Assembly: GCA_021846065.1 (NCBI GenBank)
Contig: JAJZCP010000034.1
Location: 1-10,057, forward strand
DNA from: Acidobacteriota bacterium
Lineage (GTDB): Bacteria > Acidobacteriota > Terriglobia > Terriglobales > Acidobacteriaceae
Reading direction: 5' to 3'
Length of the DNA: 10,057 nt
Below are positions 3,608 to 10,057 of this stretch, piece after piece (the stretch's first letter is position 1; each line of letters opens with the position of its first letter). The notes below the pieces were generated by a model. The model saw only the letters and a list, made by a program, of their open reading frames with translations, did not search any database and was not told the origin of the DNA. The position numbers and the translations under genes are program-made.

Positions 3608-3614
3608 AGTGTGT

Positions 3615-4025
3615 ATGGAGCTGAATACGTATCTTCTGTTTCACGGCAATTGCCGCCAGGCGCTGGAGTTTTACGAGCATGCACTCGGCGCGCGCATTGA
3701 GTCCGTCTTTACCTATGCGGGCAGCCCGATGGATGGCGGAACGCCGGAAGGGTGGGGCGACAAGGTGATGCACGCGCGCATCACCATCGCCGGCCAGATC
3801 GTCATGGCGTCCGACGCGCCTCCGGACCGCCAGCAGAAGCAAGGTGGCTTTTCCATGTCCATCAGCGTCAGTGATCCCGCTGAGGCGGATCGTGTCTTTC
3901 AGGCGCTGACAGCCGGAGGCCAAATCACCATGCCGATGCAGGAGACCTTCTGGGCGAAGCGGTTTGGGATGTTGGTGGATCGTTTCGGCATCCCCTGGAT
4001 GGTGAACTGCGAAAAGACGATGTAG
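3615..4025 (+). CDS. VOC-superfamily protein, PhnB/3-demethylubiquinone-methyltransferase-like
   Basis: A 136-residue protein of the vicinal oxygen chelate (glyoxalase/bleomycin-resistance) superfamily, of the PhnB-like type. Seen directly: the opening YLLFHGNCRQALEFYEHALGA (6-26) that forms the first beta-alpha-beta unit, HARITIAGQIVMASDAPP (53-70), and the closing FWAKRFGMLVDRFGIPWMVN (112-131) that is highly typical of PhnB-type members. His53 and Glu110 sit where family members often place metal ligands, but the metal site cannot be confirmed from sequence alone. The substrate is unknown; members of this group are mostly uncharacterised despite the ubiquinone-methyltransferase name sometimes attached to them. 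It is the third gene of the propeller/MoaD-like operon, 12 nt after the previous stop, though its strong own ribosome-binding site means it need not depend on coupling. The repeat array starts 12 nt after its stop codon. Confidence 0.88.
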   Translation: MELNTYLLFHGNCRQALEFYEHALGARIESVFTYAGSPMDGGTPEGWGDKVMHARITIAGQIVMASDAPPDRQQKQGGFSMSISVSDPAEADRVFQALTAGGQITMPMQETFWAKRFGMLVDRFGIPWMVNCEKTM

Positions 4026-4037
4026 CCCGCAGTCCCG

Positions 4038-4269
4038 TTGCCCTTGCCGTTGCCGTTGCCTTTCTTGTTGTCATTCCCGAAGGGAATCTGCTTCTGCCGT
4101 TGTTGTTGCCGTTGCTGTTGCTCTTGCCGTTGTTGTTGCCCTTGCCTCTCTTGTTGTCATTCCCGAAGGGAATCTGCTTCTGCCTTTGCTGTTGCTGTTG
4201 CTGTTGCCGTTGCCTTTGCCGTTGCCGTTGCCTCTCTTGTTGTCATTCCCGAAGGGAATCTGCTTCTGC
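4038..4269 (+). repeat. Left half of palindromic repeat array (three direct copies with TTGCCN tracts)
   Basis: Three perfect copies of a 28-bp unit lie at 4070-4097, 4156-4183 and 4242-4269. The core is CATTCCCGAAGGGAATCTG, whose ATTCCC/GGGAAT arms pair around a GAA loop, followed by CTTCTGC. Start-to-start distance is exactly 86 bp both times. The 58-nt spacers (4098-4155 and 4184-4241) and the leader 4038-4069 consist of TTGCCG, TTGCTG, TTGCCC and TTGCCT hexamers, contain no A on this strand, and end in TTGCC(T)nCTTGTT before each copy. The array follows the VOC gene directly. The low-complexity spacers exclude CRISPR. Long open frames across it (runs of Leu/Pro, Cys or Ala/Val) are products of the repeat, not proteins. 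Confidence 0.95.
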
Positions 4270-4298
4270 ATGCAATCCGCGACTGCTACGCTACGGCC

Positions 4299-4616
4299 AT
4301 GCCCCGCCGGGAGTATCACTTTTGGGTCTATATCCTCTCCAGCCGCTCACGGAATGTCTACATCGGAATGACCAATGATCTGAGGCGCCGGGTCGCCACC
4401 CATCGGGAGCCTGTCCACGGTACGCACACGGGGCATTACGCCATCCATCGGCTCGTGCATTTCGAACATTTCCAATACGTGAGCAATGCCATTAATCGCG
4501 AGAAGCAGCTGAAGCATTGGACACGGGCTGAGAAAATCGGCCTCATCGAACAGGCCAATCCGACGTGGGAGGATTTGTCTCTGAAGCTGGATACTCCGCT
4601 CGTGTCCGGAGAGTGA
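4299..4616 (+). CDS. Single-domain GIY-YIG endonuclease embedded in the repeat array
   Basis: A 105-residue protein consisting of one GIY-YIG nuclease domain. The two motif strands are VYIL at 10-13 and VYIGMTNDLRRRVATH at 20-35, supplying Tyr11, Tyr21, Gly23, the Arg29-31 cluster and His35; INREKQLKHW at 65-74 carries the conserved metal-binding Glu68, and NPTWEDL at 87-93 is the usual C-terminal signature. Length and layout fit the small COG2827-type proteins, often misnamed UvrC N-terminal domain proteins. The frame is open upstream to 4038 through the low-complexity tracts, but homology begins at the ATG at 4299; no Shine-Dalgarno is visible before it. The TGA stop touches the right inverted repeat. 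From family knowledge it should cut DNA at one strand or as a dimer; that the flanking ATTCCC-N3-GGGAAT palindromes are its targets is an inference from the arrangement. Confidence 0.9.
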   Translation: MPRREYHFWVYILSSRSRNVYIGMTNDLRRRVATHREPVHGTHTGHYAIHRLVHFEHFQYVSNAINREKQLKHWTRAEKIGLIEQANPTWEDLSLKLDTPLVSGE

Positions 4617-4641
4617 GAAGCAGATTCCCTGCGGGAATGAC
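4616..4641 (-). repeat. Inverted copy of the palindromic repeat, right arm of the GIY-YIG unit
   Basis: Reads AGAAGCAGATTCCC-TGC-GGGAATGAC on the plus strand, the reverse complement of the direct copies except for one base in the hairpin loop. It is the only inverted copy in the window and begins at the final A of the GIY-YIG stop codon. Confidence 0.93.
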
Positions 4642-4676
4642 AACCAGAAAAGCAAAATCCTGTGTCCGTTCTTGCT

Positions 4677-4863
4677 GTCATTCCCGAAGGGAATCTGCTG
4701 TTGCCTTTGCCCTTGCCTTTGCCCTTGCTGTTGCCCTTGCCTTTCTAGTTGTCATTCCCGAAGGGAATCTGCTTCTGCTCTTGCCCTTGCCCTTGCTTCT
4801 GCCGTTGCCGTTGCTGTTGTTCTTGCCTTTTTGCTGTCATTCCCGAAGGGAATCTGCTTCTGC
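4677..4863 (+). repeat. Right half of palindromic repeat array (three direct copies)
   Basis: Copies lie at 4677-4704 (two mismatches in the last five bases, CTGTTGC for CTTCTGC), 4751-4778 and 4836-4863 (both perfect). Start-to-start distances are 74 and 85 bp; the 74-bp step is exactly two hexamers shorter than the 86-bp step on the left. Spacers 4705-4750 and 4779-4835 are again TTGCCN-type hexamers with a single A in total. The stretch from 4864 to 4984 that follows holds no recognisable gene; only a possible promoter element near its end is noted. Confidence 0.93.
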
Positions 4864-4972
4864 CCCTGCCTTTCGTTTGCCCGAGAGAATGACCATCAGC
4901 ACCCCTGGCTGCGTCCCGGGTTTCCTTTGTGCTGTCCCCCCTTGAAGAAAAGCAGCGAAGCAGCCGCGGGAC

Positions 4973-4984: not shown

Positions 4985-5854
4985 ATGGGCAACACTCTGA
5001 AAACTGCTTTCCTGCTTACGGTTCTCACTCTTATGCTGATCGCCATCGGCGGGCGCATTGACGGCCAGAATGGTCTGATCTTCGGCTTTCTGGTTGCCGC
5101 AGCCATGAACTTCTTCAGCTATTTCTATTCCGACAAAATTGCCCTGCGCATGTATAAGGCGCAGCCTGTTTCGCGGGAGCAGCTGCCGCGCGCCTACGCC
5201 GTGGTGGAGCGCATGACGCAGAAGCTGGGCCTGCCGATGCCCAAAATGTATGTCATCCCCACGGAGTCGCCCAATGCCTTTGCGACCGGACGCAATCCAA
5301 AGCATGCCTCCATCGCGGTGACGCACGGCATTCTGAACCTGCTGAACGATGACGAGCTGGAAGGCGTGCTGGCGCATGAACTGGGCCACGTGCGCAACCG
5401 GGACATCCTCACCAGCTCCATTGCGGCCACGCTGGCCGGGGCCATCACACTGATCGCTCGAATGGGCTACTGGGCCTCGCTGTTTGGGGGCTTTGGCGGC
5501 GGCAGCGGGCGTGGCGGCCGGGATCGCGGCGGTCTGGGATCGCTGTTCCTGCTGATTGTGGCGCCCATCGCCGCCATGCTGGTACAGCTTGCCGTTTCGC
5601 GCTCGCGGGAATATGAAGCCGACGCGACCGGCGCGCACACAACCGGCAATCCCTATGCGCTGGCCAGCGCGCTTGAAAAGATTGATGCCTACTCGAAGCG
5701 CATGCCACTGGTGGCTTCGCCCTCGTCGGCACACCTATTCATCGCGCAGCCATTTGTCGGGGGCGCCATGCTGGCGAATCTTTTCTCGACGCATCCGCCG
5801 ATGGCCAAGCGCATTGAACGGCTGATCGGCCGCACCTCGGTCAACGGGTTATAG
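4985..5854 (+). CDS. htpX: HtpX-type M48 membrane zinc metalloprotease
   Basis: A 289-residue inner-membrane protease that in other bacteria degrades misfolded or damaged membrane proteins alongside FtsH. Hydrophobic segments are at about 7-22 and 30-48 near the N-terminus and 142-160 and 185-203 after the active site. The zinc-binding HELGH is at 131-135 with catalytic Glu132, and SREYEADATGA at 207-217 gives the third ligand, Glu209, and the conserved Asp213. SPNAFATGRNP (95-105) and FSTHPPMAKRIERL (267-280) are family signatures. A glycine/arginine-rich insert (167-184) replaces the loop between transmembrane segments and is shared, as I recall, by acidobacterial homologues. The start MGNTLKTAFLL matches the family, and no alternative in-frame start with good spacing exists. 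It forms an operon with the DUF4149 gene 3 nt downstream. In Enterobacteria htpX is under Cpx or heat-shock control; no such box was recognised here. Confidence 0.95.
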   Translation: MGNTLKTAFLLTVLTLMLIAIGGRIDGQNGLIFGFLVAAAMNFFSYFYSDKIALRMYKAQPVSREQLPRAYAVVERMTQKLGLPMPKMYVIPTESPNAFATGRNPKHASIAVTHGILNLLNDDELEGVLAHELGHVRNRDILTSSIAATLAGAITLIARMGYWASLFGGFGGGSGRGGRDRGGLGSLFLLIVAPIAAMLVQLAVSRSREYEADATGAHTTGNPYALASALEKIDAYSKRMPLVASPSSAHLFIAQPFVGGAMLANLFSTHPPMAKRIERLIGRTSVNGL

Positions 5855-9420: not shown

Positions 9421-9443
9421 TTTGGTGGGTGCAGTTACCCCGG
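9421..9443 (+). repeat. 23-bp direct repeat, copy A
   Basis: Identical over 23 bp to 10035-10057. It contains GGTGGGTGCAGTTACC and a short potential hairpin (GGGT, six-base loop, ACCC). It begins 18 nt after the SDR stop and lies 116 nt before the response-regulator start. Similarity extends a few bases further left if a 4-nt gap is allowed (GCCTTTTG against GGCTTTT). Whether it is regulatory, a mobile-element footprint or part of a repeat family cannot be told. Confidence 0.8.
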
Positions 9444-10034: not shown

Positions 10035-10057
10035 TTTGGTGGGTGCAGTTACCCCGG
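10035..10057 (+). repeat. 23-bp direct repeat, copy B, ending at the window edge
   Basis: Exact copy of 9421-9443, 614 bp downstream and 107 nt after the response-regulator stop. It reaches the last base of the window, so the full repeat may be longer. The sequence between the response regulator and this copy (9928-10034) holds no recognisable gene. Confidence 0.8.

Follow-up and report, generated by a model that had tools for sequence, protein, structure and literature searches.

The window, by which we mean the whole 10,057-nucleotide stretch of acidobacterial DNA analysed here, contains a small gene for a GIY-YIG nuclease of 105 aa lying between a direct and an inverted copy of a palindromic repeat. 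This arrangement had been claimed in the original prediction and was confirmed, the two copies being located at 4241-4263 and 4620-4642. The features of the locus are listed below (G030 and G101 are related genomes).

3609..4025, + strand: left neighbour, glyoxalase/3-dmu-9 domain (Pfam); anchors the gene-free site in G030
4069..4091, + strand: further repeat copy, exact 23-mer
4155..4177, + strand: further repeat copy, exact 23-mer
4241..4263, + strand: left bracketing repeat, exact 23-mer, hairpin in DNA folding; TGTC tag 4241-4244, ATTCCC 4245-4250, loop GAA 4251-4253, GGGAAT 4254-4259, tail CTGC
4299..4616, + strand: GIY-YIG nuclease gene, 105 aa, single-domain (PF01541, E 5.8e-13)
4620..4642, - strand: right bracketing repeat, inverted, tag outermost, loop GCA on its own strand (sequence match)
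4676..4698, + strand: further repeat copy, exact 23-mer
4750..4772, + strand: further repeat copy, exact 23-mer
4835..4857, + strand: further repeat copy, exact 23-mer
4985..5854, + strand: right neighbour, peptidase M48 (Pfam); anchors the gene-free sites in G030 and G101

The repeat has the form TGTC-ATTCCC-GNA-GGGAAT-CTGC (23 bases), and seven copies surround the nuclease gene. Exact copies of the 23-mer TGTCATTCCCGAAGGGAATCTGC begin at 4069, 4155, 4241, 4676, 4750 and 4835, always on the + strand; besides the bracketing pair, five direct copies sit within 250 bp. The copies on both sides had been described as identical, which is true of the six direct ones, whereas the inverted copy has a different loop; the short loop of three nucleotides was correctly described, being a GNA triloop in the window. 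With regard to the repeat limits, the match to the 3' tail of the right copy does begin on the final base of the stop codon (4616), but the other limits needed shifting by one or two bases, with the left copy starting at 4241. A TGA within the right repeat (4638-4640, at the arm/tag junction) lies in the reading frame of the nuclease gene, whose own stop comes eight codons earlier. Of 184 homologues, 120 were listed, and 37 of these have a C-terminus that is exactly ADSLRE or ADPLRG; by protein-level comparison for those 37, these residues are the inverted right repeat read in the gene frame, with the stop at the arm/tag junction. A scan of the window against Rfam at gathering scores gave no known RNA family. 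TTGCC(G/T/C)-like hexamer arrays were seen between the repeats (4030-4240 and 4699-4870), and similar tracts lie beside the repeats of G030 and G101.

The window protein exceeded the Pfam cut-off for GIY-YIG and is hence a member of that superfamily. Pfam gave this domain alone, without the HUH tyrosine transposase domain of the RAYT type, and the one NCBIfam match, to group I intron endonucleases, fell below the cut-off. A role as an anti-phage defence gene was rejected, as PADLOC matched 0 families. The closest homologues are 79% identical among the matches listed (the best 120 of 184). Alignment of 50 relatives revealed that Y11, Y21, G23, H35, E68, N87 and W90 are invariant and R31 nearly so; we take Y11, Y21, R31, H35, E68 and N87 to be the catalytic residues of GIY-YIG enzymes. 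A C-terminal NPxWxDL motif is kept in 105 proteins compared from the set with flanking repeats. The AlphaFold2 model displayed a GIY-YIG fold (pLDDT 86.6), and a PDB search with it gave a sole match at E <0.001, the UPF0213 protein 1zg2 (BH0048), followed by weaker matches to Slx1 chains (E 0.02 and up) and then to a UvrC domain. The GIY-YIG fold is thus common to UPF0213, Slx1 and the window nuclease, with low similarity to 1zg2 in sequence (E 4e-05).

Tagged repeats in related genomes and beside other nuclease genes

A scan of nine related genomes for the window repeat, with the three loop bases free and at most one mismatch, showed that six carry it, in 2 to 102 copies (G001 56, G002 102, G116 49, G003 2, G030 35 and G101 93), so that many dispersed copies exist in relatives; G127, G076 and G151 had zero. 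A reversed-pattern control gave zero matches in the nine genomes, and chance occurrence was ruled out by the copy counts together with this control. When the GNA loop was fixed and up to two mismatches were allowed, three of 14 genomes were positive, with 58, 122 and 3 copies. A subfamily of the window type with an AAA loop instead of GNA was seen on contigs C10 and C13 of G001, some of it in short tandem arrays with a spacing of about 40-60 bases.

A search for the nuclease family found it in 94 of 150 genomes, with 1-9 matches each. The repeat is present in each of the four searched genomes (G001, G002, G003 and G116) whose nuclease matches P0001 over most of its length at 60% identity or more. 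It also occurs in G030 and G101, which lack a nuclease of this kind, and both count against the pairing: G101, with 93 copies, is absent from the 94 positive genomes (a small assembly of 2.6 Mb), and the sole nuclease match of G030, with 35 copies, is 45% identical (a small assembly of 2.8 Mb).

We then considered 109 nuclease loci, comprising 20 from genome contigs, 28 from the family search, 60 further ones and the window; L051 and L065 were left out as duplicates of L001 and L004, and nine loci are from other phyla (L007, L009-L011, L013, L015-L017 and L019). The detector sought GTCA[TC] followed by a palindrome, up to 250 bases upstream or 350 bases downstream of the nuclease match. It was designed post hoc, after the data had been seen, with the background taken from scrambled tags and from YchF flanks. 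Tagged palindromes adjoined the nuclease in 107 of the 109 loci (314 matches), at a density of 4.84/kb versus 0.73/kb further out. Control flanks of YchF genes from the same family of genomes gave 0.34/kb (6 of 30 loci; the end of four of these genes was placed 6 bases off), and four scrambled tags near the nuclease gave 0.42-0.56/kb (24-28 of 109 loci). A first, stricter detector (loop up to 24) had found repeats in 73 of the 109 loci, 12 loci having been read on the wrong strand; with the same reservation, a looser scan of the other 36 revealed tag-like motifs in 35, which by eye mostly had longer inner stems. No flanking tagged repeat was found by the wider detector at L068, where the tag-like motif forms no clear palindrome. 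Among the 105 loci with full flanks, repeats were two-sided in 87, one-sided in 17 and missing in one (L068); the 87 comprised 59 with inverted repeats and tags outward, 12 inverted with tags inward and 16 direct. The proposed partnership of nuclease and repeat was hence borne out well beyond the window, and the pairing is both genuine and general. At L018, L019 and L020 the nuclease gene is decayed, with stops or a partial match, yet tagged repeats still adjoin it.

A further pattern, with 8 free bases instead of 7 (an odd loop class), matched in 17 of 20 genomes with a detected nuclease versus 9 of 20 where none was detected, with 84 versus 26 matches, G019 and G020 supplying 49, which makes for a weak test; the negative genomes with a few matches include G051 (8) and G024 (5).

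To other GIY-YIG genes the association does not extend uniformly. PF01541 was searched in six acidobacterial genomes, four of them already in the 109-locus set. The UvrC-type genes of 624-679 aa (L262, L263, L265, L266, L267 and L270) had chance-like matches only, and no repeat with TGTCAT plus a pyrimidine arm. The short nuclease loci L258-L261, L268, L269 and L271-L273 had tagged repeats on one side or both (L258, L259, L261 and L268 are the same as L060, L123, L062 and L069). G132 has two further short GIY-YIG frames (L264 and L274, about 140 aa each), which had no flanking repeats and probably belong to another subfamily.

Outside the phylum, homologues proved to be mostly flanked as well. 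In Alphaproteobacteria, tagged palindromes were found in 25 of 30 loci (3.74/kb versus 1.12 further out; three scrambled tags, 6-12 of 30 loci), and in Bacteroidota in 28 of 30 (5.83/kb versus 0.20; three scrambled tags, 5-9 of 30), leaving five and two loci, respectively, where they were missing. Tags pointed outward from inverted repeats in 10 of the 13 two-sided alphaproteobacterial loci; no such preference was seen in the 23 two-sided loci of Bacteroidota (nine outward). Many alphaproteobacterial copies read CGTCAT...ATCCA, with ATCCA at the untagged end.

Matched arms, hairpin form and gene-free sites

The arm adjoining the tag varies among loci (CCT, CCC, TCC, TCT and others). In 77 of 89 two-sided loci, the arm triplet is identical on the left and the right, compared with a mean of 25.2 and a maximum of 40 in 10,000 shuffles. 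Whether paralogues are flanked by matching copies had been proposed as a check, and they mostly are: in 19 genomes with several two-sided loci, the arms agreed in 39 of 43 comparisons inside one locus and in 17 of 60 between loci. That the repeat varies by locus yet matches across each gene fits a cognate pair. Likeness of the repeats also tracks likeness of the nuclease proteins (Mantel r 0.33, reached in 0 of 5000 shuffles, n=87), a correlation of which linked inheritance alone could account for a part. In G004, the CCC type makes up two of 51 repeat matches, and both adjoin one nuclease paralogue (C373:1936-2202); in G030, the two matches to the pattern with 8 free bases flank its single nuclease match (C150:4733-5023), 45 bases ahead of it and 509 bases beyond it.

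The form of the hairpin was tallied with a pattern that left 11 bases free between the arms, in the 150 listed matches from G132, G155, G004 and G017 (out of 279 in eight genomes). Watson-Crick arms were present in 141 (CCT/AGG, TCT/AGA, TCC/GGA or CCC/GGG), the pattern itself having fixed pyrimidine versus purine in two arm positions and C versus G in one. An inner two-base stem was found in 145, GA on both sides in 139 and a GNA loop in 126, with 0 TNC loops; among the 57 distinct sequences, the corresponding counts were 49 for the arms, 52 for the inner stem, 47 for GA/GA and 43 for GNA. The compensating changes in the arms argue for their pairing, and the preference for GNA and GA points to a hairpin on the TGTC strand. 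Beyond the GNA loop of the window repeat, many other subfamilies have a tandem GA mismatch below the loop. DNA folding gave the expected hairpins at modest energies, which is a weak argument (z of -1.9 for the window repeat and -0.1 for the CCT type).

A comparison of relatives for empty sites had been proposed as a check of the original prediction, and gene-free sites were found in two close relatives, G030 and G101, whose YchF is in both cases 97% identical to that of the window. In G030, the same two genes enclose a site that holds one complete repeat and a truncated inverted remnant but not the nuclease. In G101, the M48 side is kept and the repeats follow each other as in the window (direct, inverted and direct) without a nuclease, the bracketing repeats being 39 bases apart versus 356 in the window. 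The nine bases before the inverted repeat of G101 match the end of the gene at seven positions, a weak hint at loss rather than gain of the gene. Other GTCATCCTGACC-type repeats stand in G101 (L276) at the place of the glyoxalase-type gene, only the end of which seems to be left.

P0001 is 70% and 69% identical to the nucleases of G001 and G116, whose YchF proteins are 42% and 41% identical to that of the window; G127, G076 and G151 have a YchF 86-87% identical to the window's, yet no window-type repeat. These sequence comparisons offer a lead to horizontal transfer of the nuclease. We keep it as a mere lead because near-full-length YchF matches fall into two groups of identity to the window (about 65-97% and about 38-43%), and YchF itself may be the transferred gene.

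Known systems and the proposed two-part system

Like the window protein, Ssn of Neisseria is a single-domain GIY-YIG protein; it is accompanied by NTS repeats. Such nucleases, from Neisseria and others, reportedly cleave single-stranded repeat DNA according to a paper of 2025, and the nuclease-repeat principle itself is said to be already published for them; what is added here is the link to CGTC REPs, the private pairing of paralogues and the gene-free sites. The window gene differs from Ssn in being bracketed by its own repeats, and its cleavage activity is putative. The form claimed for the neisserial dRS3 repeat, ATTCCC-N8-GGGAAT, agrees with the published description, which gives a 20-bp repeat with 6-bp inverted ends in almost 700 copies (PMC3898611). 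Many copies with ATTCCC...GGGAAT are common to dRS3 and the window repeat; the loop is 8 bases in Neisseria versus 3 in the window, and the phylum is different.

The CGTC REPs are CGTC/TGTC-tagged repeats of five phyla whose stem almost always starts with AT; they have a short loop and an unpaired tail, are dispersed, often as dimers of opposite orientation, and 'apparently lack a dedicated transposase' (Di Nocera, De Gregorio and Rocco, 2013; PMC3733652). The TGTC-ATTCCC of the window repeat shares with that superfamily the tag next to a palindrome starting with AT, and the ATCCA untagged end of CGTC REPs was seen in many of our alphaproteobacterial copies. The four families described there have a stem of 8-9 bp and a loop of 4-5 bases; because of its 6-bp stem and 3-base loop, we filed the window repeat in none of them. 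Acidobacterial repeats further differ in a tail that is often CTG(C), and here a GIY-YIG gene adjoins the repeats.

In REPtrons, as at the window locus, a gene is flanked by a dispersed tagged palindrome; there, the enzyme (RAYT) is an HUH tyrosine transposase and the tag is GTAG (PMC3733652), in contrast to the GIY-YIG nuclease and the TGTC tag of the window. Among the literature matches listed, no title or abstract opening tied such repeats to GIY-YIG proteins, and a term search of the RepRanger article (PMC12306157) gave no word starting with GIY or nuclease.

It is probable, in our judgement, that gene and repeats form one two-part system, a small GIY-YIG nuclease with a REP-type repeat that it recognises. 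Direct support comes from the pairing, the matched flanking repeats, the private pairing of paralogues, the conserved hairpin and the gene-free orthologous sites. Recognition of the repeat by the nuclease is very likely, and single-strand cutting is likely by analogy with Ssn. As single-stranded DNA or RNA, the TGTC strand would fold into a hairpin with a GNA loop, to which the nuclease would bind; like Ssn, it would most likely nick this strand at or near the tag, on single-stranded DNA of the lagging strand or of transformation or repair intermediates. Through recombination and repair, such nicks may cause copies of the repeat, and occasionally the bracketed gene, to be copied or lost. GIY-YIG enzymes hydrolyse and, to our knowledge, none joins ends; spreading of the repeat would therefore need host repair. 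A nuclease acting on the hairpin would also explain the GNA loops and tandem GA mismatches, both unusually stable in single-stranded DNA.

The abundant dRS3 repeats and the Ssn nuclease with its NTS repeats in Neisseria would suit a control of DNA uptake, in which single strands that enter the cell or become exposed would be cut by the nuclease at the repeats and transformation thereby shaped, the repeats being marks and not selfish; we think this unlikely, since the patchy distribution, the several paralogues and their private repeats resemble mobile pairs more than a housekeeping role. A homing-type gene, copied into gene-free repeats that its nuclease cuts, the repeats being targets spread by other means, is distinctly unlikely. 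It would account for the bracketing by target-like repeats, for the occurrence in 94 of 150 genomes with 1-9 matches each and for the gene-free sites of G030 and G101, but leaves unexplained why each paralogue has its own repeat family and why one genome can hold from tens up to roughly a hundred copies with a common hairpin; the 7/9 resemblance in G101, weak as it is, fits loss and not gain.

The position of the right copy at the stop codon, and the fact that the window repeats are intergenic hairpins, could also mean that they are transcription terminators or mRNA-stabilising hairpins, or that the gene just lies in repeat-rich intergenic DNA. We hold this to be highly improbable: the YchF flanks are at background (6 of 30 loci), the UvrC-type genes are without such repeats, and left and right repeats match yet differ among paralogues of one genome.

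The two-part system would provide a candidate enzyme, now in three phyla, for CGTC REPs, a question left by the survey of 2013 (PMC3733652). We suggest tentatively, at somewhat less than an even chance, that the dedicated enzymes so far missing for CGTC/TGTC REPs in at least three phyla are the single-domain NPxWxDL-type GIY-YIG nucleases. Each pair would be a selfish two-part system whose repeat is spread by its own hydrolytic hairpin nuclease instead of a transposase, with one private repeat family per paralogue. If so, REP-like spreading would have evolved around an unrelated nuclease fold, and the naturally paired hairpins would constitute a code book for sequence-specific hairpin nucleases; matched nuclease-repeat pairs can be swapped in vitro.

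Elsewhere in the window, an exact 23-base direct repeat with GGGTGCAGTTACCC was noted at 9421-9443 and 10035-10057, the second copy forming the very end of the window.
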